Assembly (NCBI GenBank): GCA_001897155.1
Contig: MKSF01000014.1
Location: 248,001-312,000, forward strand
Direction: 5' to 3'
DNA from: Bacteroidetes bacterium 47-18
Lineage (GTDB): Bacteria; Bacteroidota; Bacteroidia; Chitinophagales; Chitinophagaceae
Length of the DNA stretch: 64,000 nucleotides
Positions 3,765 to 25,326 of this stretch are shown here, piece by piece (position 1 is the stretch's first letter; the number at the start of each line of letters is the position of its first letter). A program made the translations under genes and the position numbers. The notes under the pieces are model-generated. The model saw only the letters and a program-made list of their open reading frames with translations, was not told the origin of the DNA and searched no databases.

Positions 3765-4148
3765 CCTATTACTTAACATTAGGATCTTCTTTTTAAAGAA
3801 TAAAAATAGTATAGCATCGGTCGGTCGCATTGGCCGGTCTGTTCTTTTTAAAGTAAAGTGTCTTATATGTTCACCTATGAAAGGCAGCTTTGCGCAGTGA
3901 TGAAGCAGGGGTATTTTGATGAATGTTCTGTTGTTTTGATGACTGTGATATAACCAGATATTGATTGCTCTGCCCGTGAGCAGCAGAAGAGCAGGGGATG
4001 CCCCCTTTTTCTGAATACCCGGGTCTGAAGCGCTACGATACAATATTGATGGTCTGCCGTTTGCACCCTTTCCCTTGAATATATTGCCGGTTACCCTGTT
4101 CCTGTTTATTATAATTAATTTAATTCTAAATTGAAATTTTGCTTACTT

Positions 4149-7100
4149 ATGGAAAGCTTTTGTCTAAAAAAACTATTTCTTGTATTGCTTACCTGGATGG
4201 TTACTATAGGTGCCTACGCCCAGCAGTATCAATCATCCTTTACTCCGTCAAGCAATAACTCTATTCCGCTTGCAAGTTCCTCGAACAAGATACAGTGGCT
4301 ATACCTGCCTTCCGAGATCACTCCCGCCGCGGTGCCCGGGTCTATTACAAAGATTTATTTGCGTATAGGTGCTACGGCTGGTGCGGCTACGTTCACCAAC
4401 CTGTCGGTAAAGATGGGTACTACAACGCAGACTGCCACAACATCCACATTTATCACAGGGTTGTCCCCGTGCTATGCTGCTGCATCTGTCAGTTTCCCGG
4501 CTCAAACCCAGGGCGACTGGCTGGAAATAACGCTGCAGAATCCTTTCTCGTGGGATGGCGTATCCAACCTGGTGCTGGAAGTGAGCCAGGAAGGATATAG
4601 TGTCGGCAGGGGAATGTGGCAGTACTCCGGGAATGGTAACAGGCGTACTTACGGAACAGTAGCGGCGACTACCGGTAGCGCCGGTAGTGGACAGGTGCAC
4701 TTTGGCTTTGACATGGCCTGTACGGCCCCGCCTGTAGCCGGAAATGCTGTAAGCAATACACCGTATGCCTGTACGAGTACACCTGTTACGCTGGACCTGA
4801 CCGGTAATTCCACGGGTGCAGGACAGACCTATGAATGGGAAATGTCCACTACCAATCTTCCCTTTAACTGGGTATCTGTGGGCCCGGCAACAGCTAACTC
4901 CTCATATACTACTACCCTGAGCGCGGATGCCTGGTTCCGTTGTAAAGTAACCTGTAACAGCCAGAGCTCCTACTCTTCTGTCGTATCGGTTACCTATGGC
5001 GGCCCATTACCTGGCGGTACCTATACTATTAACCCTGCCGGAACCGGACCCAATAACTTCCCGACGCTGGAGTCATTCGTGGATGTTCTAAATAATTGTG
5101 GTATTGCCGGTCCGGTAACTGCCGATGTAGTGCCAACCCTTATTACATCCAACAGGATACAATTCAATGATATTGCAGGCGCCAGTGCGGTCAACCGGAT
5201 CAGGATCAATGGTAACGGCTCAGTGATCACTTATGCAGCTACTACTGCTTTATATTCGACTGTGGAACTGAATGGTACAAAATACCTGACGCTTGACAGC
5301 TTCCGGATAGTGGGCACCAATGCCTCCTACGGGTGGGGTATCCACCTGTGGAATGCGGCACAATATGACAGCATTACCAGATGTCGTATTGACCTGTCCA
5401 CAGTAACGGCAACCAGTTCGTCTTCCGCCAATGGTATTATACTTGCCGGCTCCCGGACCTCTGTCTCTACTTACGCCAACAATGCTTCCGACTGCTATTT
5501 CGGTAAGAATGAGATATTTGGTCCCAGCAACTCCGGTTATGGTATATACTATGGCATATCACAGCTGGGCAGTGCGGCCACGCATAATGTGAATAATATT
5601 TACGATGGGAATACGATCAGGGATTTTTATTATACGGCAATATACCTGCGCTTTGGTAATAATGTTAAAGTGATTAATAATGATATCCATAAGTCAGCGA
5701 AAAGCGCTGCGAACTCAAGTGTGTACGGGATACAGACTACCAGCGCCACTGCTAACCTGGAGATTTCAGGAAACCGTATCCATCACCTGAATGGTACCAA
5801 TAACAACTATACGTCAACGGCGTACGCGATATATATATCATCACCATCCACTACGGCAGCGGCTCCGCTGAAAATAATCAATAATGCGATCTACCAGAAT
5901 AATATGCCCCTATATGGCATATACCTGTCCGTTTGTCCTTACGCTTATGTATATCATAATACCATTGAGGCTTCTTTACCACCTACTTATTCAAGTACAT
6001 CAGTACAATATGGTATTTACCTTACTTCTACTTCTACGGGAAGTGAGGTGAAGAACAATATCGTGAATTTTCCTAATATCCTGAACTCCCAGGTATTTGG
6101 TGTCTCTGTAAGCTCTGCTATCGCTGCCAACGGCCTGCAGGGTAATGCGGTATATGTAAACCCAAGCCAGCCATCCAGCATGGCTTACGGGTATCTGAGC
6201 AATAGCTATGCTACTTTAGCGGATTTCAGGAGCGCCTATCCTGCTATGGAAACAACATCCGTATCTGTTAACCCTTATCTCACCAATCCGAATGCAGGGA
6301 ACCTGCTGCCGGCTAATAATATGCTCTACCGGACAGGTGTCAATCTCGGCGGGCAGGTGAATAATGATATCGTGGGTGTTGCCAGGTTTGCAGCCCAGCC
6401 AACGCCCGGCTGCTATGAGCTGACGACTATTCCATCCACTCCCGGTGTGGAGCTGGTGACCCTTTTGATGAAAGATATGATTTGTACTGCGTCAGATACG
6501 CTGAAGATCGTAGTGGCCAATCAAAGTTCTGTTCCCATAACAAGCCTGCGTGTTAACTGGTACCTGAACGGTACGCCGCAGCCTGTTATCAATTACTCCG
6601 GTACGATCGCTCCGACTGCTTACGATACCATATTGATAGGGGTGATCAACTTTTTACCTAACCAGTCTGTTGATATGGCGGTGCGTATTTCACAGCCCAA
6701 TAACCAGCCGAACTCTTTCACCGGCACGGACAGCCTGTCTATAAGCCGGGCCCGGGGTATGTCAGGCGTCTATACGGTCAATGCAGCAGCCATTACATCC
6801 GGTACCAATTTCAATAATACTGCCGATATGCAGGATGCTCTGAATCTCAGGGGCGTGTGCGGACCGGTAGTCATTAATTTTGTGAGCGGATCGGGTCCCT
6901 ATACCGGTGATATCATACTGAAAGACATCCGGGGATTATCGGCTGTAAATACGCTGACGCTTAACGGGAATGGTAACCAGGTGGAATATAATGGTACTTC
7001 AGCCAAGCCGCACTCCCTGGTGCTGGATAATGTGAGTTATGTATCCGTGAAGAACTTTATTTTCAAATCCCTGAACAGCAACTATGGCTGGGGGGCGCTG

Positions 7101-10100
7101 GTCAGCAGCAACTGCCAGTCCGACTCTATCCAGGATTGTACCTTCGATATGAGCAGCGTTACAGGGTCGGGGTCAAGTAATGGTAATGGTATTGCTGTGT
7201 CCGGCTCTTATTCGAATCCGACTACCAATACTTCCAATACTTCCGGCCTGGTAATACAGAATAACGTTATTATGGGTACGCTGAACCAGTACGGTATCTA
7301 TTACGCGCTTACGCTTTATAATGTTACCAACAGTATCATCCGTAATAACCGCATACAGGATTTTTATTACTATGGTATATTTGTTAATTCGGGATCCAAC
7401 AATCTTATCGAGAATAATATCATTCATAAATCCAATAAAACGGCCGCGACGAATACGAATGCAACGGGGATATACCTGTCCAATAGTATGGCGGGTACCC
7501 AGGTGGTGCGTAACAGGATATACAGCTTAGGCGGCCCGACTGGCAGCGGTAGCAATGTGCTCTATCCTTTATACCTGTCCAGCGCCAGCGGTTCTGCCGT
7601 CAGTCCTGTCATAATAGCTAATAACCTCACGTATGGTAATAAATCCAATGGCGTATTATACGGGGTGTATGTATCATCTTCCAGCTATGTAAGGCATTAC
7701 CATAATACCATCGTGCTGGATGAGAACTCAACATCCAATGGTGCGACCTATGGTTATTATTTTACCAGCACAGGAACACAATCCGAATTTAAGAACAATA
7801 TTATTGCAATAACCGGTGGTACTACCGGTAGTATTTATGGATATTACATGAATACTGCTACTTCCATACTGTATGCCAATGCCCAGAGGAACAATGTGTA
7901 TATCAGCACATCGCAATCAGCAAATACTTTCCACTCTTACTGGGGCGCGAACAGGGCGACCCTGGCAGCTTTACAGGCTGCGTATCCAACGACAGAAATA
8001 GGCTCAATGTCAGTGGACCCTCTGTTCGTAAATCTGCCGTATGGAAACTTTACCCTGCAGAATGTTTCACCGCTGCTTACCAATGGTGAAAACCTTACTG
8101 CCTGGGTGCCTGTGGATATCGATGGCAACAACAGGACCATAACCCCTACTGTAGGTGCCTATCAGGTATCGGCACCGCTGGCCAATGATGCCCAGACGAT
8201 GGAGCTGGTCGGAACCCTGTGCAGGGGTACCAATACTATCCTGGTGAAAATAGCCAACAATGGCTCCAATGTCCTGGATAGTGTAAGGATCAACTGGACC
8301 ATAAACGGTATTGCGCAGCCTACAAGGTATTATACTACCCCGATTGTTACGCAGAGCATGTCCAATACCCTGTATATGCACACCGTCACGCTCGGACCAA
8401 CACTGCAGCCCATTTCAGGCCCCGTTACCGTGAAGGTATGGACTTCGCATCCTAATGGCCAGAATGACGCATTGACGCTGAACGATACGATCGAAGCCTA
8501 CCAGAACCCGCCTTTAGCAGGTATAGTGACCATTAACAGCGGGCAGCCGGCAGGCGGCACCAATTACCAGAGCTTCGGGGCATTAACGGCAGACCTGGAC
8601 ACTTCCGGCCTGTGCGGCCCGCTGGTGGTCAATGTCGTATCGGGATCCGGTCCTTATAATGAGCTGGTAACGTTCAATAATTATACAGGCTCCAGCGCTG
8701 TGAATACAATTACGGTTAACGGTAACGGCAATACGGTGCAGTTTGCACCTACCACGGCAAGGTATCCTATCGTGCATTTCAACGGTGCGCAATACATAAA
8801 GCTGGATAACCTGGTCATCAAGTCGCTCAGCACAGCCTACGGATGGGGCGTATTATTCAATAACGGCTCCCTGTATGACAGCCTGACGAATTGTGTGGTG
8901 GATCTCAGCATCATGACCTCTACTACTTCCAATAACTCCAATGGTATCGTATTTTCCAACTCATTGACCTCTCCAACCACTACAGGCACCAACCTGGCTA
9001 AGAATATCTATGTAGGCAGTAACGAGCTGAGAGGCAACCCCGGCAGCATTTATAGTATGTACTCCGGTGTCTGTATCAATTCAGGAGCGGATAGCATTAC
9101 TATACATAACAATGAGATCAAGAATTTCTGGACCTACGGTATTTACTTTACCGGTAACTCCTACAATACGGATGTGAATGGCAACCGTATACACCGGTCG
9201 GACAAGACGAGCGTTTCTACCTTCTACGGTATATCTACAGCCTCTGCGATGAGTGGCTCCAGGATCAGGAATAACAGGATCTATTCGCCCACAGGTGGCA
9301 GCACCGTAGCTTTCACCTATTACGGGATGTCGCTTGCCGGTGACGGTACGGCCGCCAACCCGGTGCAGGTCTACAATAACCTGGTCTATGACATCAACGG
9401 CGGCGGTAGTTACGCAATGTACTTCTCAAGTGCGCAATACAACCAGGTATATCATAATACTGTTTCTTACGACAGGCCTATCAGCTACGGAACCACCAAT
9501 TACGGTATGTATTTTACGGGTACAAATACCGGAACGGAAGTGAAGAATAATATCATCAACTTCCAGGGAGGCGGCACCACTACCAAATACGGTTACTACT
9601 TCAGCAGCGCTTCGCCTGCCGTAGCGGATATTCAGCGTAATAATATCTATTTTAATACTTCCCAGGCCGGTACGCAGTACCACAGCTATTATGGCGGCGC
9701 CAGGGCCACCCTGGCAGCCTTACAGGCGGCTTATCCTACTGCGGAAGTTGGGACGGTCATTACCAACCCTTACTTTACCAATCCCGCAGCCGGTAATTTC
9801 AGGCCGGGTGTCATGGCCTTCCCGATGCTGACAAACGGGTTGAACCTGAATGCGGTGGCCCCTGTGGATGTTGAAAATACTACCAGGCCGGCGGCTCCAA
9901 ACCCGGGCGCCTGGCAGATGGAAGAATTTGTGAACAACAATGCGGGAGCGGATACGCTCCAGTCGCCGGCGGCCTTCTGTGCCGGCAGCACGCCGGTGAT
10001 CGTAACGATCAAAAATGAAGGACTGAACGACATCACATCGGTACAAGTGCACTGGAGTTTGAATGGTGTGCTGCAGACACCGGTTACCTATACCGGTACC

Positions 10101-13100
10101 CTTACCTCTCCGCTCGTTAACTACACTAACAGCAAGGCGGCGGTAGCATTAGGGAATGCCGTAATGCAGAACGGCTTTAATACCGTGAAATGGTGGACCG
10201 TGCTGCCGAACAACTCCGTGGATATACGCAATAGCAATGATACGGCAGAAAAGGTCATCAGGTCAGGTTTCGAAGGAACCTTTACCATAGATCAGACCCA
10301 GGCGGCCAGCGCAACCAATTTCACGTCGGTATCTTCCTTTGTGCAGACACTGGAGCAGATGGGCGTCTGCGGCCCCGTGGTGGCAGATATCGTTACCGGC
10401 ACCGGTCCTTATGCGGAAAGGGTCTACATCGGAACCATTCCCGGCACCAGTGCGGCCAATACAGTGCGCATCAACGGTAACGGTAATACGGTGCAGCATA
10501 ACAGCACCACTTCGGAAAGCCACTTGCTGCGTCTTACAGGTACGCAATATACCACCATTAATAATGTGGTATTCAAGAGCATCAACGCGAACTACGGCTG
10601 GGGCGCCCATATCATGGGTGGTGCGGCGTATGACAGTATCATCAACTGTGTGTTTGACCTTACCACGCCTACCAGTACGTCTTCTGCCTACTGTAATGGT
10701 ATTACTTTCTCCGGCTCTTTGACCAGCCCAACTACCACGGCTGCCTCTATTGCCAATAATTGCTATATCGGTAATAACAGGGTGCTGGGTACTTCCGGCA
10801 ATAACGGGCACTACTATGCTATGACCCTGATGCAGGGTACGCAGAATGTGATCGTAGAAGGGAATGAGTTTGCGAATTTCTATATATACGGTATATATCT
10901 GGGTGCGGGTCTGAACAATATTAAGATATCGAACAATACCATACACCGTTCGGCCAAGACAGCGGTCACTACCTTCTATGGCATCTATTCCACCGGGCTG
11001 AAATCCGGCAGGACGGAAGTGACGGGCAACAGGATACATACACCGGGTGGTGTCAATAACGGAAGCGGTACTGCTTACGGAATGTATTTCACATCCGCGT
11101 CAACGACTGTCAATGATACGCTGCTCATCACTAACAATGTGGTATACAACATGAACCAGGCCGGTTCAGTGTATGGAGTAGGTGTGGCAACAGGCGGCCA
11201 GAACGTATATATGCTGCATAATACGATCGATTTCCCGATCGCGCTGACGGGTACCACCTATGGCTTTTACATATCTTCCACTCATACTAACGGGCATTTG
11301 AAAAATAACATAGTGTCTTTGCCGGCTAGCGGTACGGGTACGATGTACGGGTATTACATGGGTACTACCAATGGCATACCCCAGGCGAATGTGCAGCGTA
11401 ATAACATATGGCTGGGATCGGCAGCTCCGCCTGCAAGCTTCTATCACAGCTATCATGGCGGAAACAGGCAGACGCTGGCGAATCTGACAGCAGCCTATCC
11501 TGCTATGGAGGTCGGTTCTATAAGTGTGGATCCTCAATATGTCAATGCCGCTACAGGCAACCTGGCGCCGCTGAATAATGCTTTATATGGCAACGGCTTA
11601 CCTATGCAGGATTTCGTTCCGGCAGACATTACAGGTCTCCCAAGGCCGGTTAACCCGACACCGGGCGCTTATGAAAAGCCGCTTAGTAACGGTAATGACG
11701 GGTACCTGGTGGACATCAGGGGGCTGGAAACGCCATTCTGTCCCGGTACCAGGGATGTGGAAGTCGTGCTGATGAACTACGGCTCCAATCCGTTGAGCAA
11801 CTTCAATATTAACTGGTCGATCAACGGGGTACCGCAGACACCATACCTGTACAGCGGCGTGCTGGACACCTTCAGGGGTGCCGGACGTAATACCGATACG
11901 GTGCTGCTGGGTACCGGCAATTTTACCACCGGTTCCCATATCGTGAAGGCCTGGGTCAATGTGAATGCGGATGTGAACAGGGATAATGATACGGCTACGG
12001 TAAATGTTACGCTGGAAGATTACAAAGTAGTGGCTGTTAAAGACACCGTTTGTAAAGGTGCGGAAGCCAGGCTGAAGCTGAACCCGGTGACCGGTCTGAG
12101 TGCCGGGATGCTGGAATGGTACAGCTCGCCGGATGGCATTACTTATACGCCGCTTCCTGCTTCGGCTGCCTTCAATTATAACGTGACAGTGATGGATCCT
12201 GCTTACTTCAAGGTAGCTATGACCATCGACAATATGACCTGCTATACGGATTCGTTAAGGATAGACGTGGTAGATCCGCAGGTGCTGAGCGTCAATGCGC
12301 CGGTGCAGTGCGGACCGGGGTCCACAGTGTTGACCGCCGTGACCAATCCGCTGGTAAATGTGAACTGGTATGAAGATGAAAATGACAATACGCCGTTATT
12401 TACCGGTGGTACATTTGTGACGCCTGTAGTAAGCCGGGTAGATACCTTCTGGGCTGAAGGCTTCTTTGATAACGGTACCGGTGATGCGGACTCCCTGGCA
12501 ATACCCCTGGCTACAGGTACTACTAGCGGTGTGAACTATCATATGTTCCTCATGTCCGCGCAGGCGGAAGATGTGGATATCAACTCCATCGCCATCAAGT
12601 GTAATGCTGCGGTCAATACCCTGACCTCCTGGGATATTTATTACAGGCCGGATAACTACCAGCTGGTACCGGGCTCCAATACCAATGGCGCGGGCTGGAC
12701 CCTGTTGTCTTCCGTGACGAATGTGCCTTCGCTCGGAGCCGCTGCGTACACCGTGATAGCAGATAATCTCGGTCTTACGATCCCGGCAGGACAAACCTAC
12801 TCGTTCCACCTGGCGCCGCCTAACGGTCCTCACCAATATGCCACCACGGCAGCGGGAACCATTACGGCTTCTAATGCGGACCTGGTATTCAGGGCGGGCC
12901 ACAGGGGAGGTACCACACCTTTCAACTGTACTACGGCGTCCGGTATGCCGATCATAAAGGTCAACTATGCGAAAGGCGAGCCATGTGTCAGCCCGAGAGT
13001 GCCTGTGATAGTGACGGTACATCCTGAGCCGGAAGTGGACCTGGGACCTGATATCAATACCTGTGTGGACGTAGGTCACCTGGAATTCCTGAATGCAAGA

Positions 13101-13961
13101 AACCCGGGAAGCGATTATATCTGGGATAACAGCTATAACGGACAGGTTCGGGTAGTAGACGGTTCTGGCACTTACTTTGTAACCGTTACCAACACTTACG
13201 GATGTGTCGGTTCCGATACCATCAATATCAACTTTAAATACAATCCGGAAGTGGATCTGGGTAATGACACGCTGGTATGTAACAACGTATCTGTCAGGCT
13301 GGATGCGGGCAGTGCAGGCATCTCCTATATATGGAACACCGGTGCTACCACCCGTACCATCAATACAGGAGCTATGGGACTTTACTATGTGAATGTGATG
13401 GGTGAGAACGGCTGTGTGGGCACGGATACCGTAGCGATAAGATTTGGCGGCGTTTCACCGACTCACGATGGTGTATGGGTAAGGAATGTGGGCATTAACA
13501 AGTTCAGTTTTGCTGTGATTAACCCTGTTAATATACATACCTATATCTGGGATTTCGGTGACGGTTCGCCGGTATCTTACCTGGAGAATCCTACGCACTA
13601 CTATCCGTTAAAAGGAAACTATGTGGTGACGCTGAGGCAGCTTAACGAATGTGGCAACGCCGTAGATACCACTACCATTCACGTGCTGACCTCTACCGGA
13701 ATAGATGAGCTGGAAACTTCCCTGGATATTGCGCTCTATCCCAACCCTGCGAAGGACCGTGTGGAATTCAGGCTGGATAAGGGTATCGTAGTAGAAAAGG
13801 TATATGTCTATAATATGCTGGGACAATTGGTGCACAGCCAGGAATATAAGCCTGCTGAGACACCTGCCATAGATGTGGCAGTCCTGGGTGCGGCTATGTA
13901 CAATGTGCAGATCCATACCAATAAAGGAATGGCTACCCGTAAGCTGGATATTATAAAATAG
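4149..13961 (+). CDS. Giant T9SS-exported surface adhesin with four beta-helix/Ig-like units
   Basis: About 3270 residues. I place the start at the ATG at 4149; a TTG at 4131 would add six residues. The signal peptide ends near AYAQQ. Numbering from the TTG frame: residues 25-195 form a beta-sandwich, followed by an Ig-like domain. Four tandem units of about 585 residues begin near 295, 878, 1463 and 2048. Each opens with a G-(T/V)-(Y/F/V)-T-(I/V) strand, then an N-x-F segment and an (L/V/I)-x-G-(V/L)-CGP(V/L) motif. It then carries a long right-handed beta-helix rich in INGNGN, YGWG and NNxI repeats (NosD/pectate-lyase-like), and closes with a CARDB/Ig-like domain around LRVNWYLNG. After about 2627 come Ig-like domains, a PKD domain (YIWDFGDGSP, about 3137) and the T9SS type A sorting domain (YPNPAKDRVEF to KLDIIK, 3203-3276). 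Outer-surface attachment is expected; adhesion or glycan binding is inference. Confidence 0.9.
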   Translation: MESFCLKKLFLVLLTWMVTIGAYAQQYQSSFTPSSNNSIPLASSSNKIQWLYLPSEITPAAVPGSITKIYLRIGATAGAATFTNLSVKMGTTTQTATTSTFITGLSPCYAAASVSFPAQTQGDWLEITLQNPFSWDGVSNLVLEVSQEGYSVGRGMWQYSGNGNRRTYGTVAATTGSAGSGQVHFGFDMACTAPPVAGNAVSNTPYACTSTPVTLDLTGNSTGAGQTYEWEMSTTNLPFNWVSVGPATANSSYTTTLSADAWFRCKVTCNSQSSYSSVVSVTYGGPLPGGTYTINPAGTGPNNFPTLESFVDVLNNCGIAGPVTADVVPTLITSNRIQFNDIAGASAVNRIRINGNGSVITYAATTALYSTVELNGTKYLTLDSFRIVGTNASYGWGIHLWNAAQYDSITRCRIDLSTVTATSSSSANGIILAGSRTSVSTYANNASDCYFGKNEIFGPSNSGYGIYYGISQLGSAATHNVNNIYDGNTIRDFYYTAIYLRFGNNVKVINNDIHKSAKSAANSSVYGIQTTSATANLEISGNRIHHLNGTNNNYTSTAYAIYISSPSTTAAAPLKIINNAIYQNNMPLYGIYLSVCPYAYVYHNTIEASLPPTYSSTSVQYGIYLTSTSTGSEVKNNIVNFPNILNSQVFGVSVSSAIAANGLQGNAVYVNPSQPSSMAYGYLSNSYATLADFRSAYPAMETTSVSVNPYLTNPNAGNLLPANNMLYRTGVNLGGQVNNDIVGVARFAAQPTPGCYELTTIPSTPGVELVTLLMKDMICTASDTLKIVVANQSSVPITSLRVNWYLNGTPQPVINYSGTIAPTAYDTILIGVINFLPNQSVDMAVRISQPNNQPNSFTGTDSLSISRARGMSGVYTVNAAAITSGTNFNNTADMQDALNLRGVCGPVVINFVSGSGPYTGDIILKDIRGLSAVNTLTLNGNGNQVEYNGTSAKPHSLVLDNVSYVSVKNFIFKSLNSNYGWGALVSSNCQSDSIQDCTFDMSSVTGSGSSNGNGIAVSGSYSNPTTNTSNTSGLVIQNNVIMGTLNQYGIYYALTLYNVTNSIIRNNRIQDFYYYGIFVNSGSNNLIENNIIHKSNKTAATNTNATGIYLSNSMAGTQVVRNRIYSLGGPTGSGSNVLYPLYLSSASGSAVSPVIIANNLTYGNKSNGVLYGVYVSSSSYVRHYHNTIVLDENSTSNGATYGYYFTSTGTQSEFKNNIIAITGGTTGSIYGYYMNTATSILYANAQRNNVYISTSQSANTFHSYWGANRATLAALQAAYPTTEIGSMSVDPLFVNLPYGNFTLQNVSPLLTNGENLTAWVPVDIDGNNRTITPTVGAYQVSAPLANDAQTMELVGTLCRGTNTILVKIANNGSNVLDSVRINWTINGIAQPTRYYTTPIVTQSMSNTLYMHTVTLGPTLQPISGPVTVKVWTSHPNGQNDALTLNDTIEAYQNPPLAGIVTINSGQPAGGTNYQSFGALTADLDTSGLCGPLVVNVVSGSGPYNELVTFNNYTGSSAVNTITVNGNGNTVQFAPTTARYPIVHFNGAQYIKLDNLVIKSLSTAYGWGVLFNNGSLYDSLTNCVVDLSIMTSTTSNNSNGIVFSNSLTSPTTTGTNLAKNIYVGSNELRGNPGSIYSMYSGVCINSGADSITIHNNEIKNFWTYGIYFTGNSYNTDVNGNRIHRSDKTSVSTFYGISTASAMSGSRIRNNRIYSPTGGSTVAFTYYGMSLAGDGTAANPVQVYNNLVYDINGGGSYAMYFSSAQYNQVYHNTVSYDRPISYGTTNYGMYFTGTNTGTEVKNNIINFQGGGTTTKYGYYFSSASPAVADIQRNNIYFNTSQAGTQYHSYYGGARATLAALQAAYPTAEVGTVITNPYFTNPAAGNFRPGVMAFPMLTNGLNLNAVAPVDVENTTRPAAPNPGAWQMEEFVNNNAGADTLQSPAAFCAGSTPVIVTIKNEGLNDITSVQVHWSLNGVLQTPVTYTGTLTSPLVNYTNSKAAVALGNAVMQNGFNTVKWWTVLPNNSVDIRNSNDTAEKVIRSGFEGTFTIDQTQAASATNFTSVSSFVQTLEQMGVCGPVVADIVTGTGPYAERVYIGTIPGTSAANTVRINGNGNTVQHNSTTSESHLLRLTGTQYTTINNVVFKSINANYGWGAHIMGGAAYDSIINCVFDLTTPTSTSSAYCNGITFSGSLTSPTTTAASIANNCYIGNNRVLGTSGNNGHYYAMTLMQGTQNVIVEGNEFANFYIYGIYLGAGLNNIKISNNTIHRSAKTAVTTFYGIYSTGLKSGRTEVTGNRIHTPGGVNNGSGTAYGMYFTSASTTVNDTLLITNNVVYNMNQAGSVYGVGVATGGQNVYMLHNTIDFPIALTGTTYGFYISSTHTNGHLKNNIVSLPASGTGTMYGYYMGTTNGIPQANVQRNNIWLGSAAPPASFYHSYHGGNRQTLANLTAAYPAMEVGSISVDPQYVNAATGNLAPLNNALYGNGLPMQDFVPADITGLPRPVNPTPGAYEKPLSNGNDGYLVDIRGLETPFCPGTRDVEVVLMNYGSNPLSNFNINWSINGVPQTPYLYSGVLDTFRGAGRNTDTVLLGTGNFTTGSHIVKAWVNVNADVNRDNDTATVNVTLEDYKVVAVKDTVCKGAEARLKLNPVTGLSAGMLEWYSSPDGITYTPLPASAAFNYNVTVMDPAYFKVAMTIDNMTCYTDSLRIDVVDPQVLSVNAPVQCGPGSTVLTAVTNPLVNVNWYEDENDNTPLFTGGTFVTPVVSRVDTFWAEGFFDNGTGDADSLAIPLATGTTSGVNYHMFLMSAQAEDVDINSIAIKCNAAVNTLTSWDIYYRPDNYQLVPGSNTNGAGWTLLSSVTNVPSLGAAAYTVIADNLGLTIPAGQTYSFHLAPPNGPHQYATTAAGTITASNADLVFRAGHRGGTTPFNCTTASGMPIIKVNYAKGEPCVSPRVPVIVTVHPEPEVDLGPDINTCVDVGHLEFLNARNPGSDYIWDNSYNGQVRVVDGSGTYFVTVTNTYGCVGSDTININFKYNPEVDLGNDTLVCNNVSVRLDAGSAGISYIWNTGATTRTINTGAMGLYYVNVMGENGCVGTDTVAIRFGGVSPTHDGVWVRNVGINKFSFAVINPVNIHTYIWDFGDGSPVSYLENPTHYYPLKGNYVVTLRQLNECGNAVDTTTIHVLTSTGIDELETSLDIALYPNPAKDRVEFRLDKGIVVEKVYVYNMLGQLVHSQEYKPAETPAIDVAVLGAAMYNVQIHTNKGMATRKLDIIK
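5012..12010 (+). repeat. Four tandem coding repeats of about 1755 bp inside the adhesin gene
   Basis: Unit starts lie near 5012, 6762, 8518 and 10272, a spacing of 1750-1756 bp. Some blocks are nearly identical at DNA level between units 2 and 3 (for example the ACCCTGGCAGC..TTACAGGC blocks near 7960 and 9710), which suggests recent recombination between units. The first unit is the most diverged. Confidence 0.85.
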
Positions 13962-18900: not shown

Positions 18901-21075
18901 TTATTGGATGGGGAGATTTTCTGCATTTTTAACATCCTTGCCCAGCCTTTGCAGGTAAGCGATCAGCGCTACGATCTCATCGTGAGCTTCCACGTCGATA
19001 TTGCTGGTTGCCAGGTTATCGCGTATCTCGTTGGCCTGCAGCTCAAGGTCCTTATTCGCCGTATTCTCATAGCCTTCCTCGTAAGGCACGCCCAGGCGCT
19101 TCATCGCCTTGATCATCTCGTAGGTCTTGGTTTTATCTATCCTGTCCGTAAACAGCCAGGGGTAGGAGGGCATAATAGATCCGGGCGAGGTGGATTCGGG
19201 GTCCAGCATATGGTTATAATGCCAGCTATCGGGGTATTTCTCGGCCAGCCGTGCCAGGTCGGGACCGGTACGTTTGGAGCCCCACTGGAAAGGATGGTCG
19301 TAAATGAACTCTCCTGCTTTGGAATAATCTCCATAACGTTTTACCTCGTCCCTGAAAGGTCGTACCATCTGGGAGTGACAGGTATAGCAGCCTTCCCTGA
19401 TATATATGTTCCGGCCGTGCAGTTCCAGCGCCGTATAAGGCTTGACGGAAGCGATCGTAGGGATGTTGGATTTCACAAGGAATGTCGGGATCATTTCTAT
19501 AATACCGCCTATGGCTACTGCAATGAGGGACAGGATGACCATTTGCACAGGACGGCGCTCCACCCAGTTATGCCAGTGCTTTTTACCGACAACGGGCAAT
19601 ACTTTCGGCAAAGGTGCGGCCTCGGCCTTCTCTGATGCGGTAAAATGTCCTTTCTTGACCGTTTTATACAGGTTATAGATCATCATCAGCATACTGATGA
19701 TATACAGCGCGCCTCCCACGGCCCTTAAGGCATACATAGGCACGATGGTGGTAACCGACTCCATGAACTGGTATTTCAGGTTGCCTTCTTCCGTAAAGGT
19801 CTTCCACATGGAGCTCTGTACAAGTGCTGCCGTATATAAAGGTATGACATAGAAAAGGATGCCGATAGTGCCCAGCCAGAAGTGGCGGTTGGCCAGCTTC
19901 TTGGAGTACAGCTCCGTATTGAACAGGCGGGGGATCAGCCAGTACATGATACCGAATGCCAGGAAGCCGTTCCAGCCCAGGGCGCCCACATGCACGTGTG
20001 CTATGGTCCAGTCGGTGTAGTGGGAGATCGCGTTGACCGCTTTGATGGACAGCATAGGGCCTTCAAAGGTAGCCATACCGTAAGCTGTCAGGGCCACTAC
20101 AAAGAATTTCAGGATAGGCTCTTCCCTTACCTTATCCCAGGCGCCGCGCAGGGTCAGTAAGCCGTTCAGCATACCACCCCAGGATGGCGCGATCAGCATG
20201 ATGGAGAACACGGTACCGAGGCTTTGCGCCCAGCCGGGCAATGCAGTATACAGCAGGTGGTGCGGTCCGGCCCATATATAAATAAATATCAGTGCCCAGA
20301 AGTGTATGATAGACCAGCGGTAGGAATAGATCGGCCTGTTGGCGGCTTTGGGAACGAAATAATACATCAGTCCCAGGAACGGAGTGGTCAGGAAAAAGGC
20401 TACCGCGTTATGGCCGTACCACCATTGAACAAGAGCGTCCTGCACGCCCGCATACCAGGAATAGGAATGCATGATGCTGGTGGGAATAGCGAACGAATTG
20501 ACGATATGCAGCATCGCTACGGCTACCCAGGTGCCTATATAGAACCAGATGGCTACATACAGGTGGGCTTCTCTTCTGCGCAGGATGGTACCCAGCATAT
20601 TGGCGCCGAATACGACCCAGATAAGGGTAATGGCGATATCCAGCGGCCATTCCAGCTCTGCATACTCCTTACCCTGCGTATAGCCCATCCATAAGGACAG
20701 CGCACCGGCCAGGATAATAAGCTGCCAGCCCCAGAAATGGATCTTGCTCAGGGTATCGCTCCACATCCTGGCCTTACAGAGCCGCTGCAGGGAATAATAC
20801 ACACCGCAGTAAATGACATTGCCCACGAAGGCGAAGATCACGGCATTGGTATGTACAGGTCGCATGCGTCCGAAGGTGGTGGCTTTCAGCCCGAGGTTCA
20901 TATCCGGCCAGGCCAGGGCAATGGCGATCCACAGACCGGCCAGCATCCCGATAACACCCCAGAAAAGTGATGCGTACGCAAACCATTTCACACTCTTGTT
21001 ATCATAGTAAAATGTTTCCACCTGCAGCCCCGGGGAGGAGGTGGTGTTACTGTTGGTTGTCAATAGTTCAGACAT
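18901..21075 (-). CDS. ccoNO: cbb3 cytochrome c oxidase, fused subunits I and II (CcoN-CcoO)
   Basis: 724 residues. The first about 480 are the CcoN haem-copper oxidase subunit, with about twelve TMs and ligand regions around RMRPVHTNAVIF, WYGHNAVAFFLTTPFLG and ISHYTDWTIAHVHVGALGWNG. A linker and a TM near 510-530 lead into CcoO, with a haem c site YTCHSQMVRPF near residue 570 and a late Met-containing region. The CcoN-CcoO fusion is typical of Bacteroidota. It is the catalytic, proton-pumping, high-affinity terminal oxidase in the inner membrane. It follows ccoS by about 29 nt and precedes ccoQ by 12 nt. Confidence 0.95.
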   Translation of the reverse strand: MSELLTTNSNTTSSPGLQVETFYYDNKSVKWFAYASLFWGVIGMLAGLWIAIALAWPDMNLGLKATTFGRMRPVHTNAVIFAFVGNVIYCGVYYSLQRLCKARMWSDTLSKIHFWGWQLIILAGALSLWMGYTQGKEYAELEWPLDIAITLIWVVFGANMLGTILRRREAHLYVAIWFYIGTWVAVAMLHIVNSFAIPTSIMHSYSWYAGVQDALVQWWYGHNAVAFFLTTPFLGLMYYFVPKAANRPIYSYRWSIIHFWALIFIYIWAGPHHLLYTALPGWAQSLGTVFSIMLIAPSWGGMLNGLLTLRGAWDKVREEPILKFFVVALTAYGMATFEGPMLSIKAVNAISHYTDWTIAHVHVGALGWNGFLAFGIMYWLIPRLFNTELYSKKLANRHFWLGTIGILFYVIPLYTAALVQSSMWKTFTEEGNLKYQFMESVTTIVPMYALRAVGGALYIISMLMMIYNLYKTVKKGHFTASEKAEAAPLPKVLPVVGKKHWHNWVERRPVQMVILSLIAVAIGGIIEMIPTFLVKSNIPTIASVKPYTALELHGRNIYIREGCYTCHSQMVRPFRDEVKRYGDYSKAGEFIYDHPFQWGSKRTGPDLARLAEKYPDSWHYNHMLDPESTSPGSIMPSYPWLFTDRIDKTKTYEMIKAMKRLGVPYEEGYENTANKDLELQANEIRDNLATSNIDVEAHDEIVALIAYLQRLGKDVKNAENLPIQ

Positions 21076-21104: not shown

Positions 21105-21311
21105 TTACAGGTTGCTTTCTTTTGACGGGGGAGTGGTTTTACCTTCCTTCCCGGCGGCAGGCGCGGGCAGCTTGAAATTGTCAAACAATATCTTATGCGC
21201 CGGGGAATAGGTATCATCCATCTGGCCGGACCTTACCGACCATATGAATGCGATCAGGAACAATAAGCCCACGACCAGGCTGGCACCTAAAAGCAATAAC
21301 ATTACACTCAT
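21105..21311 (-). CDS. ccoS: CcoS, cbb3 oxidase maturation protein
   Basis: 68 residues: one N-terminal TM (about 3-25, LLLLGASLVVGLLFLIAF), the conserved IWSVRSGQMDD motif and a short soluble tail with AHKILFDN. CcoS is needed for inserting haem and copper cofactors into cbb3 oxidase. It is the first gene of the minus-strand cco operon, preceded by a -7 box at 21359-21366 and two FNR-like sites. In many bacteria ccoS follows ccoI; here ccoI is on the other strand of the same locus. Confidence 0.93.
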   Translation of the reverse strand: MSVMLLLLGASLVVGLLFLIAFIWSVRSGQMDDTYSPAHKILFDNFKLPAPAAGKEGKTTPPSKESNL

Positions 21312-21358: not shown

Positions 21359-21366
21359 CAAAAGTA
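21359..21366 (-). promoter_or_regulatory. -7 promoter element of the cco operon
   Basis: On the minus strand this reads TACTTTTG, matching TAnnTTTG; the transcript would begin near 21353, about 40 nt before the ccoS start. No TTG (-33) is present, as expected for an activator-dependent promoter; an FNR-like site is centred about 42 nt upstream of the predicted start. Confidence 0.65.
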
Positions 21367-21388: not shown

Positions 21389-21402
21389 ATGATAAACATC
21401 AA
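21389..21402 (-). promoter_or_regulatory. FNR-like binding site, proximal to the cco promoter
   Basis: On the minus strand: TTGAT GTTT ATCAT, nine of ten positions of the classical FNR/Anr palindrome TTGAT-N4-ATCAA. Its centre is about -42 relative to the predicted start, the class II activation position. Confidence 0.7.
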
Positions 21403-21410
21403 ACCCGGAT

Positions 21411-21424
21411 ATGATTTTTATCAC
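21411..21424. promoter_or_regulatory. Second FNR-like site in the cco/fnr spacer
   Basis: ATGAT TTTT ATCAC keeps the TGAT-N4-ATCA core. Its centre is 22 bp, about two helical turns, from the proximal site. Confidence 0.6.
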
Positions 21425-21564: not shown

Positions 21565-22281
21565 ATGAAACCTGACTTAGAGGCATCTGTCCCTGATTGT
21601 GTGCATTGTTCCAAAAGATTTTCCTCCGTTTTCTGCCGGGCAGAAGTGGAAAACCTCCGCGTGGTCAATGAGCATAAAGTGTGCTCTGTCTATAAAAAAG
21701 GTCAGATGATCTTCAATGAAGGGAATTACGCCTTCGGGTTGTTCTGCATCAATGCCGGGAAGCTCAAAATATCCAGGAACGGCGATGACGGCAGGGAGGT
21801 GATCCTCCGCCTGGCCAAACCGGGTGATATCATAGGGTATAAGGCCTTGCTGACCAACGATAAATATTCGGCGTCGGCAGTGGCCCTGGACGACTGCAAT
21901 GTTTGCTTTATCCCCAAAGATCTGTTTCTGAAGATACTGAAATCGGACTCCTCCCTTTCCATAGAGCTGATGCGTATGCTGAGCGCCGAGCTGGGCAAAG
22001 TAGAGACCAAGCTGACGCACCTGGCCCAGAAGCCCGTACGCGAACGGCTGGCCGAAACGCTGCTGTTCATTAAGGAGACCTACGGGCTGGAAGCCGACGG
22101 CCAGACCATCAACGCCAAGCTGTCCAGGGAAGAGATCGCTAATATCGTGGGCACTGCTACGGAATCCGCTATCCGCCTGCTGTCCGAATTCAGGAAAGAC
22201 GGCATCATAGAGCTGGACGGCAAAAGCATCCGTATCACCAATCCCGACAAGCTCGTCCGTACAGCCAACCTCCAGGATTAA
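21565..22281 (+). CDS. Crp/Fnr family regulator with N-terminal cysteines
   Basis: I choose the ATG at 21565 (MKPDLEASVPDCVHCSKRF) over a TTG eight codons upstream that overlaps the -7 box. 238 residues: an N-terminal CVHC-x8-C cluster, a cyclic-nucleotide-binding-like beta-roll (about 25-135, with further Cys at KVCSV, LFCIN and DDCNVCF), a dimer helix, and a winged HTH (LSREEIANIVGTATESAIRL). The CX2CX8C pattern plus an internal Cys resembles oxygen-sensing FNR, which binds a [4Fe-4S] cluster; this is inference. It lies between the cco operon and ccoI, and FNR-type boxes occur at both adjacent promoters, so it is the obvious candidate activator. Confidence 0.9.
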   Translation: MKPDLEASVPDCVHCSKRFSSVFCRAEVENLRVVNEHKVCSVYKKGQMIFNEGNYAFGLFCINAGKLKISRNGDDGREVILRLAKPGDIIGYKALLTNDKYSASAVALDDCNVCFIPKDLFLKILKSDSSLSIELMRMLSAELGKVETKLTHLAQKPVRERLAETLLFIKETYGLEADGQTINAKLSREEIANIVGTATESAIRLLSEFRKDGIIELDGKSIRITNPDKLVRTANLQD

Positions 22282-22292
22282 AAAATACAAAC

Positions 22293-22306
22293 CTGATAAA
22301 TATCAT
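22293..22306 (+). promoter_or_regulatory. FNR-like site upstream of the small helical gene
   Basis: C-TGAT AAAT ATCA-T keeps the full TGAT-N4-ATCA core. Its centre is about 65 nt upstream of the predicted start, near a class I activation position. Confidence 0.65.
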
Positions 22307-22350
22307 ATTTGCTGCTGACTACCGTCATTTTACGGAGATATAGATAGAAA

Positions 22351-22358
22351 TACTTTTG
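22351..22358 (+). promoter_or_regulatory. -7 promoter element before the gene at 22401
   Basis: TACTTTTG, identical to the cco operon -7 element and likewise without a TTG at -33. The start would be near 22365, which rules out the TTG-type start at 22356 and supports the ATG at 22401. Confidence 0.6.
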
Positions 22359-22400
22359 CATTGTTGTGTAATATGCACCTGCACTATTGTATACTCTGCT

Positions 22401-22895
22401 ATGGATAATTTTATGCTCATCGATTTTGCTGATTTCAGGCTTACGGAAGTCTGTGGATTTGTTGTGGAGCAGTTGCACAGCAGGATACAGGACAGGATCG
22501 TCTATCTTAACAACATTATTCTTTCAAATTCCCTGGAAAAGAAGATCTATCATTCTCCCTTTCACCTTTCCTACCTGGAGCTTGTGGACAAGGTCCAGCG
22601 GCTGCTGAAGCTGGAAAAGCACGTGCTGTTCGAGTATGTGCAGGCCAATGAGCCGCTGCTGCCCCAGTTGGCGGTCCCCGCGAACAGCGGGCTGCTGATC
22701 AGGCAATTTCAGTACGATATCAAACATACATTGCTGCATACAAGGGTCTTGTTCCAGGAGCTGGAGAAAGATGCGGACGTCCGCACTATGACCTCCATTA
22801 TAGAAATGGAATTGCACAACCTGGAAACCCTTATTATACAATGGTTCCATATCGTCAATAAGGATATCCTGGGTAGGAACCGGTTAAACAAATAG
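22401..22895 (+). CDS. Small all-helical protein, possibly hemerythrin-like
   Basis: 164 residues from MDNFMLIDF; a longer frame from 22356 would start inside the promoter. It is predicted to be almost all helical, rich in His and Glu in helix-like spacing: E72-x-H74, H109, H113, E120, H139, E142, H150. The blocks LEKHVLFEYV and IIEMELHNLE recall the di-iron helices of hemerythrin/RIC (YtfE) proteins, which repair Fe-S clusters under nitrosative stress. I do not see a full canonical ligand set, so this is a hypothesis. An FNR-like site and an FNR-type regulator lie directly upstream, and ccoI starts 4 nt downstream, so a role in oxygen/NO-linked respiration fits. Confidence 0.7.
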   Translation: MDNFMLIDFADFRLTEVCGFVVEQLHSRIQDRIVYLNNIILSNSLEKKIYHSPFHLSYLELVDKVQRLLKLEKHVLFEYVQANEPLLPQLAVPANSGLLIRQFQYDIKHTLLHTRVLFQELEKDADVRTMTSIIEMELHNLETLIIQWFHIVNKDILGRNRLNK

Positions 22896-22899
22896 GTCA

Positions 22900-25326
22900 A
22901 TGAATACTGAGAAAGCCACACCGGTAATACCGGTCTATGAGACCAGCACCTGCTACCACTGCGGTGAGGCCAATCCTAACAAGGCTATCCGGCTGGAGGA
23001 CAAATCCTTCTGCTGCCAGGGATGCCTCTCTGTGTACCAGTTGCTGAACCAATCCGGCCTGTGTGCCTATTATGAGCTGAATACCAGCGCCGGCATCAAT
23101 AAGCGGGAAGTGAGCCGGTCCGATAAATTTGCTTACCTGGAAGACGAAGCCATCCAGCAGCAACTGATCAGCTTCCGTAACGAGGCGGAGACCCACGTAC
23201 GGTTCTATATCCCTTATATCCATTGCAGCTCCTGCGTGTTCCTGCTGGAGCGGCTGCACGATATACATGCCGGGGTCAAGCGGGTGGATATCCACTTCCT
23301 GAAAAAAGAGGTGTCGGTGGTATTCCGCCACGGGGAAATATCCCTGAGGGAGCTGGTGGAGCTGCTGGCCTTTATCGGGTATGAGCCGCATATCAGCCTG
23401 CAGAAGACGCCGGAACGGAAGAATCAGGTGAGCCGGAGGCTGATCTACCGTGTGGGTGTGGCCGGCTTTTGCTTCGGCAACATTATGCTGCTGAGCTTCC
23501 CCGAATATTTTTCGGTCATAGACCAGCGGGAGGCCTACCTCTCCGGTATATTCCGGTATCTCAACCTGATCCTGGCCCTGCCGGTATTCTTTTACAGCGC
23601 CATGGAATTTTTTGTGTCCGCATGGAAAGGACTGCGGCAGAAATTTATAAACATAGATGCGCCTGTCTCGCTTGCCGTGCTCACCTGCTTTATCCGTAGC
23701 GTGGTGGATATTACCGGTGGTACGGGCGCGGGCTACCTGGACTCTATGTCCGGTATCGTCTTCTTTATGCTGATAGGCAAGATACTACAGGAGAAGACCT
23801 ACAGCCAGCTTTCTTTCGAACGGGATTACTCCAATTACTTCCCCCTGGCGGCCTCGGTGGTCAGAGAAGGCGAGGTCATACCGGTCATGCTCAATAAAGT
23901 AAAGGTCAACGATACCTTAAGGATACACCACAATGAGCTGATACCCGCCGATGGTATCCTGGTCAAGGGTAAGGGACAGGTGGACTACAGCTTTGTGACC
24001 GGTGAATCGGTGCCGGTGGACCTGTCGGTGGGCAGCATTGTATATGCCGGCGGCAAGCAACTGGGAGCGGATATAGAGGTGATGACCATCAAGGAAGTGG
24101 CGCAGAGCTACCTGACCAGCATCTGGAACAGGAACAAGGACATGCAGAAGAATGACGAGGAGATACATAAAAAGAACCCGGTACACTACATCGGTAAATT
24201 CTTTACCCTTGAGATACTGCTGATCGCCTTTGCAGCGGCAGGCTACTGGTGGTATAAGGGCGATTACAATACCTTATGGGCCAGCTTTACGGCGGTGCTG
24301 ATAGTGGCCTGTCCCTGCGCCCTGCTGCTGACATCCACCTTCACGAACGGCTATATCCTGCGTATATTGGAAAAGAACGGCCTTTTCCTGCGCACCGCCA
24401 AGATGATCGACCCTATCGGCAAGCTGGATATGCTGGTCTTTGACAAGACGGGCACGCTCACTTCCGGGAGCGAAATGAAAGCTACTTTTGAAGGGAAGGA
24501 GCTCACGGTGGCGGAACGCAGCCTGATCGCCTCCCTGACCGTTCCGACCCTGCATCCTATGGCTGCGCCGGTGAAATACCTGATGGCTGTGAAGGAATAC
24601 TGGCCGGTGATGGACTTCCGCGAGTCGCCGCTGGGCGTATCGGGCTATGTCAGCGGTCACCTGGTGGAGATCGGTACCGCTTCCCATCTGCAGATACCGC
24701 AGGAAGTGGCGCCGGCAGGTACCGTGCTCTTCGTTAAGATAGACGACGAGGTGATCGGGCACCTTGAGCTGTCCCAGCGCCTGCGTAAGGGCGTCAGGGA
24801 TATGTTCCACCGGCTGTCGGACCAGATGCCATGCGTGGTGCTGTCCGGCGATAAAAATCACCAGCAGCGCTACCTGCAGGAGCAATTGGGCGCTAAGACG
24901 GAGCTGCAGTTCAACGCGGGTCCGCAGGATAAGCTCAACTATATTAAATCCCTGCAGGCTTCCGGCAGGAAAGTGGGTATGATAGGCGACGGCCTGAATG
25001 ACGCGGGCGCTTTGCTGCAGAGCGATGTAGGGATCAGCGTGGCCGATGACATCAACTCGTTCACCCCGGCTGCCGATGCCATTATAGAGGGCGGCAGGCT
25101 GGACCGGCTGGGAGCGCTGATAAAGCTGTGCGGGGCTTCTTCCCGTATCGTGAAGACCTGCTTTATCTTCTCGCTGATGTACAATCTCACAGGCGTGTTC
25201 TTCGCGGTCCAGGGACTCCTGAGCCCCCTGATCGCCGCCATACTGATGCCCTTAAGTACCCTGACCATCGTCACCATTACCTATACCTTCAGCAGGGTCA
25301 TCGCCAGGAGGTACGGGCTGGAATAG
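22900..25326 (+). CDS. ccoI: CcoI/FixI-type copper P1B-ATPase for cbb3 oxidase
   Basis: 808 residues. An N-terminal Cys-rich domain (CYHCGEANPNK...FCCQGCLSVYQ) is characteristic of FixI/CcoI. It is followed by a heavy-metal-associated-like domain with CSSCV (about 108-112), then the P-type core: TGES, the ion site CPCAL (about 477), phosphorylation motif DKTGTLT (about 515) and hinge GDGLND (about 693). It exports Cu(I) across the inner membrane for the CuB site of cbb3 oxidase. The gene starts 4 nt after the small helical gene, so both probably share the FNR-controlled transcript. It is divergent from, but functionally tied to, the cco operon. Confidence 0.94.
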   Translation: MNTEKATPVIPVYETSTCYHCGEANPNKAIRLEDKSFCCQGCLSVYQLLNQSGLCAYYELNTSAGINKREVSRSDKFAYLEDEAIQQQLISFRNEAETHVRFYIPYIHCSSCVFLLERLHDIHAGVKRVDIHFLKKEVSVVFRHGEISLRELVELLAFIGYEPHISLQKTPERKNQVSRRLIYRVGVAGFCFGNIMLLSFPEYFSVIDQREAYLSGIFRYLNLILALPVFFYSAMEFFVSAWKGLRQKFINIDAPVSLAVLTCFIRSVVDITGGTGAGYLDSMSGIVFFMLIGKILQEKTYSQLSFERDYSNYFPLAASVVREGEVIPVMLNKVKVNDTLRIHHNELIPADGILVKGKGQVDYSFVTGESVPVDLSVGSIVYAGGKQLGADIEVMTIKEVAQSYLTSIWNRNKDMQKNDEEIHKKNPVHYIGKFFTLEILLIAFAAAGYWWYKGDYNTLWASFTAVLIVACPCALLLTSTFTNGYILRILEKNGLFLRTAKMIDPIGKLDMLVFDKTGTLTSGSEMKATFEGKELTVAERSLIASLTVPTLHPMAAPVKYLMAVKEYWPVMDFRESPLGVSGYVSGHLVEIGTASHLQIPQEVAPAGTVLFVKIDDEVIGHLELSQRLRKGVRDMFHRLSDQMPCVVLSGDKNHQQRYLQEQLGAKTELQFNAGPQDKLNYIKSLQASGRKVGMIGDGLNDAGALLQSDVGISVADDINSFTPAADAIIEGGRLDRLGALIKLCGASSRIVKTCFIFSLMYNLTGVFFAVQGLLSPLIAAILMPLSTLTIVTITYTFSRVIARRYGLE

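Follow-up and report, generated by a model that had tools for sequence, protein, structure and literature searches.

A RIC-like protein that keeps two of six iron ligands, encoded directly before ccoI: a candidate accessory factor for cbb3 oxidase assembly in Bacteroidota

Directly before ccoI in the genome of Bacteroidetes bacterium 47-18 lies a short gene whose 164-residue product, P0001, matches almost nothing when searched by itself. The question raised by this locus is what kind of protein P0001 is, and what it might do beside the copper ATPase of cbb3 oxidase maturation. An earlier note on this DNA had likened it to the di-iron proteins of the hemerythrin and RIC (YtfE/ScdA) type and had placed it among possible accessory factors of cbb3 respiration. 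Here, we traced the relatives of P0001 through the gene order around ccoI, compared them with RICs in sequence and predicted structure, and examined their iron ligands, their promoters and their genomic partners.

Locus and promoter architecture

In the window, by which we mean the whole stretch of 64,000 nt analyzed here, the cco cluster is arranged as two divergent units between positions 18901 and 25326. On the minus strand, ccoS (21105..21311) is the first gene of its unit and is followed by a fused ccoN-ccoO (18901..21075) encoding cbb3 oxidase subunits and, as judged from domain matches, by FixP-, FixG- and FixH-type genes. The plus-strand unit begins with a gene for a CRP/FNR-family regulator (21565..22281; cNMP_binding and HTH_Crp_2 matches), continues with P0001, which is read from an ATG at 22401 (22401..22895), and leads into ccoI (22900..25326). 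The last was identified as the copper P1B-type ATPase of cbb3 oxidase maturation by its heavy-metal ATPase and PF12156 matches, PF12156 being the N-terminal metal-binding domain of the product, and by its position. Coordinates and domain matches agree with what had been described before: the P0001 gene is real, the FNR-type regulator gene lies upstream, and 4 nt separate the P0001 stop (22895) from the ccoI start (22900). Because of this short gap and the promoter ahead of P0001, the two genes are probably co-transcribed. Elsewhere in the window (4131-13961), we observed a repetitive open frame of 3276 aa with similar segments repeated, which by its look encodes a secreted or surface protein.

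Upstream of P0001, a distal FNR-type box (TGATAAATATCA, 22294..22305) is followed 22 bp downstream by a proximal box (TGACTACCGTCA, 22316..22327), which had been overlooked in the earlier note, and by a -7 element (TACTTTTG, 22351..22358) conforming to TAnnTTTG, which we take to be the Bacteroidota-type -7 motif. All three are on the plus strand, and 59 nt separate the center of the distal box from the end of the -7 element. The divergent ccoS-ccoNO promoter, on the minus strand, repeats this layout: its distal box (21412..21423) and proximal box (21390..21401) are likewise spaced by 22 bp and stand equally far from an identical TACTTTTG (21359..21366). By the spacing of boxes and -7 element, the P0001 promoter belongs to the group of FNR-type cco promoters. 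The FNR-type box and the shared -7 box proposed previously are both confirmed.

A lone TGAT-N4-ATCA site is not rare. This palindromic pattern alone occurs 168 times in the 3.87-Mb genome, and the window holds six sites against 1.4 expected. It is the arrangement of the boxes that exceeds chance: two TGAY-N4-RTCA boxes 22 bp apart are found twice in the window and in none of 100 shuffles, and TGAYN4RTCA-N45-TANNTTTG occurs exactly twice in the genome (assembly 98.8% complete), at the cco and the P0001-ccoI promoters. Two related genomes, G031 and G124, likewise carry the distal-box/-7 pattern exactly twice each, once before the relative of P0001 and once between ccoI and ccoS-ccoNO, where a second promoter of the same type is located. 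Both cco-type promoters have survived the rearrangement between the gene order of the window and that of these two genomes.

Scanning 12 further genomes, chosen by hand, gave 56 sites of the distal-box/-7 pattern against one for its reverse; the distal-box/-7 pattern is therefore a wider promoter type. The ten chosen genomes other than G031 and G124 hold two to nine sites each. Exactly two sites are present in five genomes. In that of the window, G031 and G124, both are at cco genes, which is not so in G020 and G142; in G020, the two sites are on contigs other than that of ccoI. With two to nine occurrences per genome in the 12 genomes, the succession of distal box, N45 and TAnnTTTG could help to delineate the Fnr-type regulon in this bacterial family and would provide a precise promoter signature for a low-oxygen regulon.

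The box is also positioned at the relatives of P0001. Of 46 related loci, 42 have a TGAY-N4-RTCA box 60-80 nt upstream of the start codon of the small gene, where a shuffle control gave a mean of 0.07 loci and a maximum of 1 (200 mononucleotide shuffles, 46 loci), and the distance from box center to the end of a strict TAnnTTTG, counted by eye, is 59 nt in 16 of the 17 loci having one after the box. Single boxes scored against shuffles were not significant at most loci, and it was the distance of a box from the start codon and from the -7 element that was informative. The box is also present at loci where no Fnr gene adjoins (L022, L044, L079, L086 and L096). As read from these sequences, Fnr probably binds the boxes, and the CRP/FNR regulator encoded upstream of P0001 is presumed to be the activator of both promoters. 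Since the FNR-type architecture is common to P0001-ccoI and ccoS-ccoNO, P0001 should be made when cbb3 oxidase is.

Family, predicted fold and iron site

Searched alone, P0001 has no family in Pfam, with no match in its 164 aa to the hemerythrin HHE domain (PF01814) or to ScdA_N (PF04405), the domain with a CC motif that many but not all RICs possess, and no clear relative among PDB sequences (best 0.074, AF4/FMR2). Its one NCBIfam match, LipL31 (0.0082), was taken as chance. A plain protein search returned one homologue among the 146 other genomes of the same bacterial family, and this homologue also lies between an Fnr gene and ccoI. Because P0001 alone matches almost nothing, relatives were sought through a synteny survey of ccoI, and only by this route did the family open.

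Of 147 genomes of the bacterial family, 99 gave a ccoI match, and the DNA upstream of it was read in 90 (30 search loci, including the window, and 60 fetched regions). A small same-strand ORF before ccoI was taken as a relative in 36 of these 90 genomes, and the relatives form three sequence groups. From a list of 44 ORFs before ccoI, eight were left out: seven that looked unrelated (L010, L048, L057, L077, L082, L094 and L095) and one that is the Fnr gene (L011). Members of group C (L034, L049, L064, L080 and L096) were assigned by position and joint alignment only and are missed at 1e-4 by the A1 profile, which was built from 31 members. When the ccoI N-terminus was used to scan named genomes, 80 loci were obtained, 17 of them with a short relative directly upstream, including loci of Edaphocola and Chitinophaga. 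Chitinophaga carriers of the gene include C. eiseniae DSM 22224 (L130) and C. arvensicola DSM 3695 (L140). The resulting small-protein set comprises 52 sequences (54 minus two identical copies), and one entry with masked letters (L188) was left out of the structure alignments. From the RIC set used for comparison, we dropped three other hemerythrins (L116, L117 and L124), a piece of the L104 protein (L118) and two divergent proteins of RIC size (L123 and L126); from the count of short matches, a contig-edge fragment (G128) that keeps all five ligands it shows. Divergence within the family is considerable, P0001 being 8-23% identical to the other 30 rows of the A1 alignment. Across 395 genomes of the phylum, scanned at E <= 1e-17, a threshold that would miss weak members, short-frame matches were found only in the same bacterial family, the frames of all other matches being at least 240 aa long.

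Profile methods tie these proteins to RIC, a family of di-iron proteins that repair iron-sulfur clusters. A profile of 20 members, P0001 included (A2), run against all PDB sequences, found E. coli YtfE (5fnn) at 3.4e-13 and S. aureus ScdA (9j47) at 1.9e-7, and a profile-profile comparison with RICs from which P0001 had been left out gave 2.5e-18. When members were scanned singly, the RIC model TIGR03652 was matched by 17 of 31 (best 8.2e-15) and PF01814 by 18 of 31 at E up to 0.5 (best 2.8e-5). A RIC-only profile recovers 42 of the 52 small proteins at 1e-3. P0001, with E = 1.3 against that profile, is among the most divergent members; a family profile built without it nonetheless finds it at 3.2e-8, the next of the 229 ORFs of the window being at 1.4. 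The NCBIfam cut-off for RIC is 204.7 bits: the canonical RICs L179 and L104 score 243 and 245 bits (TIGR03652), L166 scores 77.1 bits, and P0001 has no RIC match in NCBIfam. The canonical RIC L104 is encoded elsewhere in the same genome as P0001. In a phylogenetic tree, the small proteins are split from the RICs with an ultrafast bootstrap of 94, a split that long branches could inflate, and L166 branches first, split from the rest with 92.

Several neighboring arrangements were recorded along the way. At L179 (3116-3853), a canonical full-length two-domain RIC with all ligands stands directly before ccoI, an arrangement that is possibly a picture of the ancestral state. L166 is a short RIC relative about 1.6 kb upstream of ccoI, in a same-strand row (L166:1804-3552) that also holds an apparent universal stress protein gene and a gene of 124 aa. 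The RICs of relatives L097, L098, L102, L103 and L107 carry one to three repeated extra N-terminal domains, with three copies in L102.

An AlphaFold2 model of P0001 computed with 19 sequences of named loci displays four long helices (pLDDT 85.5, pTM 0.82). Since the underlying alignment included two canonical RIC domains and L166, the model was repeated without them, from 16 small proteins only, and the result stood (pLDDT 86.1, pTM 0.83). In VIA-align, the nine best rows were RICs both for the first model (Z 17.2-18.3, rmsd 2.5-3.4, 149-155 residues; first non-RIC 13.7) and for the RIC-free model (Z 16.8-18.2; first non-RIC, an unrelated bundle, 12.7). In Foldseek, the twelve best chains were all RICs for both models, with a probability of 0.99-1.00 and no E value below 0.001 for either (best 4.9e-3 and 7.2e-3). 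P0001 is therefore predicted to be a four-helix bundle of the RIC type. A 19-residue hydropathy window exceeds 1.6 in one of the 52 members, which is not P0001; given its low hydropathy, P0001 is likely a soluble protein. De novo heme bundles come after the RICs in the fold lists, which raised the question of heme binding; this reading was set aside, as unrelated helical bundles score similarly. One Foldseek list also contains a copper storage protein (Csp), at E about 1, a match that carries no weight as evidence.

In YtfE, Fe1 is held by H84 and H204, Fe2 by H129 and H160, and E133 and E208 serve as bridges (PMC9268430). P0001 keeps two of these six ligands, H26 (= H84) and E72 (= E133), and has L68 in place of H129, Q104 in place of H160, W148 in place of H204 and V152 in place of E208. 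All six, together with the conserved H105, are present in 18 of the 19 canonical RICs of the joint alignment. When the divergent RIC-sized L123 and L126 (genome G007, away from ccoI), which keep five and four of the six, are counted as well, the full set is present in 18 of 21 RIC-type proteins, and partial ligand loss therefore also occurs away from ccoI. Among the 52 small proteins, none has all six ligands; the number kept ranges from 0 to 5, with two kept in 20 of them, and L166 keeps five. H129 is lost in 51 and H204 in all 52, the latter position being Trp in 33, whereas E133 is retained in 39, E208 in 33, H160 in 24 and H84 in 22. The channel residue E159 is Glu in one of the 52, and E125 is kept in 40, P0001 having K64 at this position. 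Neither E72 nor C18 varies among the 17 sequences of the P0001 group that make up the RIC-free alignment.

The substitution H129L is reported to abolish iron donation by YtfE, and RICs without the N-terminal domain are reported still to hold iron (PMC9268430); it is therefore the loss of ligands, not of the domain, that matters. Leu is the commonest natural state at the H129 position here (29 of 52). P0001 is not to be filed as a RIC, because only two of the six iron ligands tested for are in place. The same results weigh on the proposal, made in the earlier note, that P0001 is a di-iron (or mono-iron) RIC- or hemerythrin-like protein binding O2 or NO. Fold and ancestry, the retained H26 and the invariant E72 speak for it, but the four replaced ligands, the reported effect of H129L and the absence of a full set from every small relative make it very unlikely. 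What stands of that proposal is the likeness in fold and family (YtfE at 3.4e-13, Z of 18 to ScdA): the profile search and structure prediction that it called for returned a four-helix bundle with ScdA/YtfE as best fold. A His/Glu cluster binding di-iron, O2 or NO is not supported by the ligand comparison.

Linkage to ccoI and selection

To establish the genomic partners of the family, we ran the A1 profile over all 147 genomes, a search that found RICs anywhere in the genome. Full-length RICs aside, it returned 36 matches; the open frame is at most 215 aa long in 35 of them and 243 aa long in the one from G011. Eight further matches, those next in frame size (235-242 aa), have all six ligands and were therefore counted as RICs, and the G011 protein, which keeps two of six and has a Cys loop, was therefore counted as small. 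All 36 non-RIC matches, of which 31 are from genomes that had supplied the seed, all picked beside ccoI, and five are new, lie directly before ccoI: 33 are separated by 11-191 nt from a same-strand ccoI match downstream, and in the remaining three the ccoI N-terminus comes immediately afterwards on the contig. No small relative was found in the 48 genomes without a ccoI match. Such strict linkage to cco genes is what one would look for in a cbb3 oxidase biogenesis factor. The small gene was not found in 58 of the 99 ccoI-bearing genomes (group C sought in 90), and with the A2 and A3 profiles it was not directly upstream of ccoI in 63 of the 80 named loci; CcoI therefore works without it.

The association with Fnr is looser. 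Of 50 loci, 32 have an Fnr gene no more than 200 nt upstream and three have one at a greater distance, and none was seen in 15 (up to 1.3 kb read upstream; at L035, only 100 nt); an Fnr gene also occurs next to ccoI without the small gene, for example at L134-L136. The constant partner is ccoI, not Fnr. To the question, raised in the earlier note, of whether the gene always lies between an FNR regulator and ccoI, the answer is that ccoI follows in all 36 profile matches, whereas an Fnr gene closely precedes it in those 32 loci. These counts bear on a reading in which P0001 is a partner of Fnr or of the canonical RIC, either as a non-catalytic paralogue guarding or helping to repair an iron-sulfur cluster of Fnr or as a regulatory subunit of RIC. 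Its RIC ancestry, the Fnr gene found upstream at most loci and the canonical RIC in the same genome would suit such a partner; the 15 loci with no Fnr gene seen, against ccoI following every profile match, and the Fnr-ccoI pairs without the small gene do not, and we consider it unlikely.

Selection was estimated on relatives, P0001 lying outside the pairs used. Seven pairs were taken, two of which were saturated; in the five with usable dS (0.1-1.4), dN/dS was 0.02-0.11 for the small gene and 0.04-0.07 for the ccoI N-terminus. The small-gene family, as measured on these relatives of P0001, is under purifying selection and fast-diverging. A RIC gene in decay, without function and hitchhiking with ccoI, would account for the low conservation in the A1 alignment and for the patchy presence. 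However, it is contradicted by the selection test, and both the open frames in 36 genomes and the positioned box in 42 of 46 loci argue against it, so that we give this explanation almost no credence.

Proposed role and relation to known systems

While the identity of P0001 is well supported, its biochemical role is something we infer. The reading that we favor, and to which we give about an even chance, is that P0001 is a single-domain RIC-derived protein without an iron site that serves as an accessory of CcoI in cbb3 assembly. P0001 would descend from a RIC (YtfE/ScdA) ancestor whose N-terminal ScdA_N domain and di-iron site were both lost. Produced together with CcoI and the cbb3 oxidase at low oxygen, it would no longer be an iron donor, nor a reducer of NO or nitrite, and would act as an iron-free, protein-binding accessory on the cytosolic side of CcoI, aiding copper loading, folding or regulation of the ATPase during cbb3 assembly under low oxygen. 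CcoI of Rhodobacter capsulatus takes Cu(I) from cytosolic donors, and its two N-terminal sites are thought to be regulatory (PMC8475189). As CcoI is supplied by cytosolic donors, the simplest reading is that of a cytosolic helper for copper loading, folding or control of activity, and a binding role without iron fits P0001 best. Given that the gene is not found before most ccoI genes, P0001 would refine or condition the process. Linkage and promoter would fit any function needed with the cbb3 oxidase, and the contact with CcoI is hypothetical.

Other metal ligands in P0001 are possible, as judged from its residues. If P0001 were a metallochaperone, the bundle without iron would bind Cu(I) or Zn(II) through C18, His-rich tails or a Cys/His loop and feed the N-terminal sites of CcoI, as the cytosolic copper supply through two such sites in R. 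capsulatus might suggest (PMC8475189). Besides being invariant in the RIC-free alignment, the C18 column holds Cys in 32 of the 33 relatives bearing Trp148 and in 34 of all 52, compared with 1 of 19 RICs. Several relatives have His- or Cys-rich C-terminal tails, and in a branch of 11 sequences the loop HxCxxCxGxC is invariant and is accompanied by another, nearly invariant His; the unseeded G011 member also displays this loop. By contrast, P0001 itself has a single Cys, C18, and no His-rich tail, and the putative metal motifs vary by branch; the metallochaperone reading is possible, and we regard it as doubtful. The H-x-C-x2-C-x-G-x-C motif was recorded in L068, L071, L072, L078, L079, L083-L086, L088, L090 and L262, where it is likely a metal site, absent from P0001.

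More speculatively, and with low confidence, a RIC copy beside ccoI may have lost its iron site once, early in this bacterial family, after which some branches kept plain binding surfaces and others rebuilt separate Cys/His metal sites to feed or gate CcoI; an iron-repair protein would thereby have become an assembly factor on the copper side.

If the favored reading of P0001 as an iron-free accessory of CcoI is true, these proteins constitute a bacterial family of RIC derivatives that lack an iron site and are linked to ccoI across many genera of a single bacterial family, and a candidate accessory factor for cbb3 oxidase biogenesis in Bacteroidota. They would also offer a natural test of the RIC fold once iron chemistry is removed, in which a substitution reported to kill iron donation by YtfE (PMC9268430) has become the prevailing state. 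At the level of titles and the beginnings of abstracts, with most subscription journals outside the scope of the search, we found no paper on a RIC-like gene at ccoI or in the cbb3 loci of Bacteroidota.

The closest known proteins are the RICs themselves (YtfE/ScdA, TIGR03652), with which the family shares sequence similarity at family level, a modeled four-helix bundle and alignable ligand columns, and to which it is opposed in the tree. It differs from them in lacking ScdA_N, in its lost ligands, with Trp for H204 in 33 of 52, in being found only at ccoI across the 147 genomes, and in its cco-type promoter. The P0001 family builds on this known fold, and single-domain RICs and one iron-less paralogue have already been described (PMC9268430). 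The RIC of Neisseria gonorrhoeae is, like P0001, a single-domain protein without the N-terminal domain, but it has kept its di-iron center, whereas RIC2 of Trichomonas vaginalis is a RIC paralogue isolated without one (PMC9268430). P0001, which ligand comparison suggests to be iron-free, would resemble RIC2 in this respect; RIC2 differs in being a eukaryotic, DNA-binding protein with a leucine zipper and a signal peptide (PMC9268430). In Myxococcus xanthus, the single-domain hemerythrin MXAN_5531 belongs to the NmpR oxygen regulon together with the cbb3 oxidase and its P-type ATPase (PMC11841059). The likeness, drawn from the description, is that a protein of hemerythrin type shares a low-oxygen regulon with cbb3 oxidase; MXAN_5531 differs in that it adjoins hemN and that the hemerythrins of that paper are presented as oxygen-binding di-iron proteins (PMC11841059). 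Finally, cbb3 maturation involves cytosolic and periplasmic factors around CcoI, such as CopZ and SenC (PMC8475189), and it is by its presumptive role only that P0001 may be likened to the members of this accessory network.
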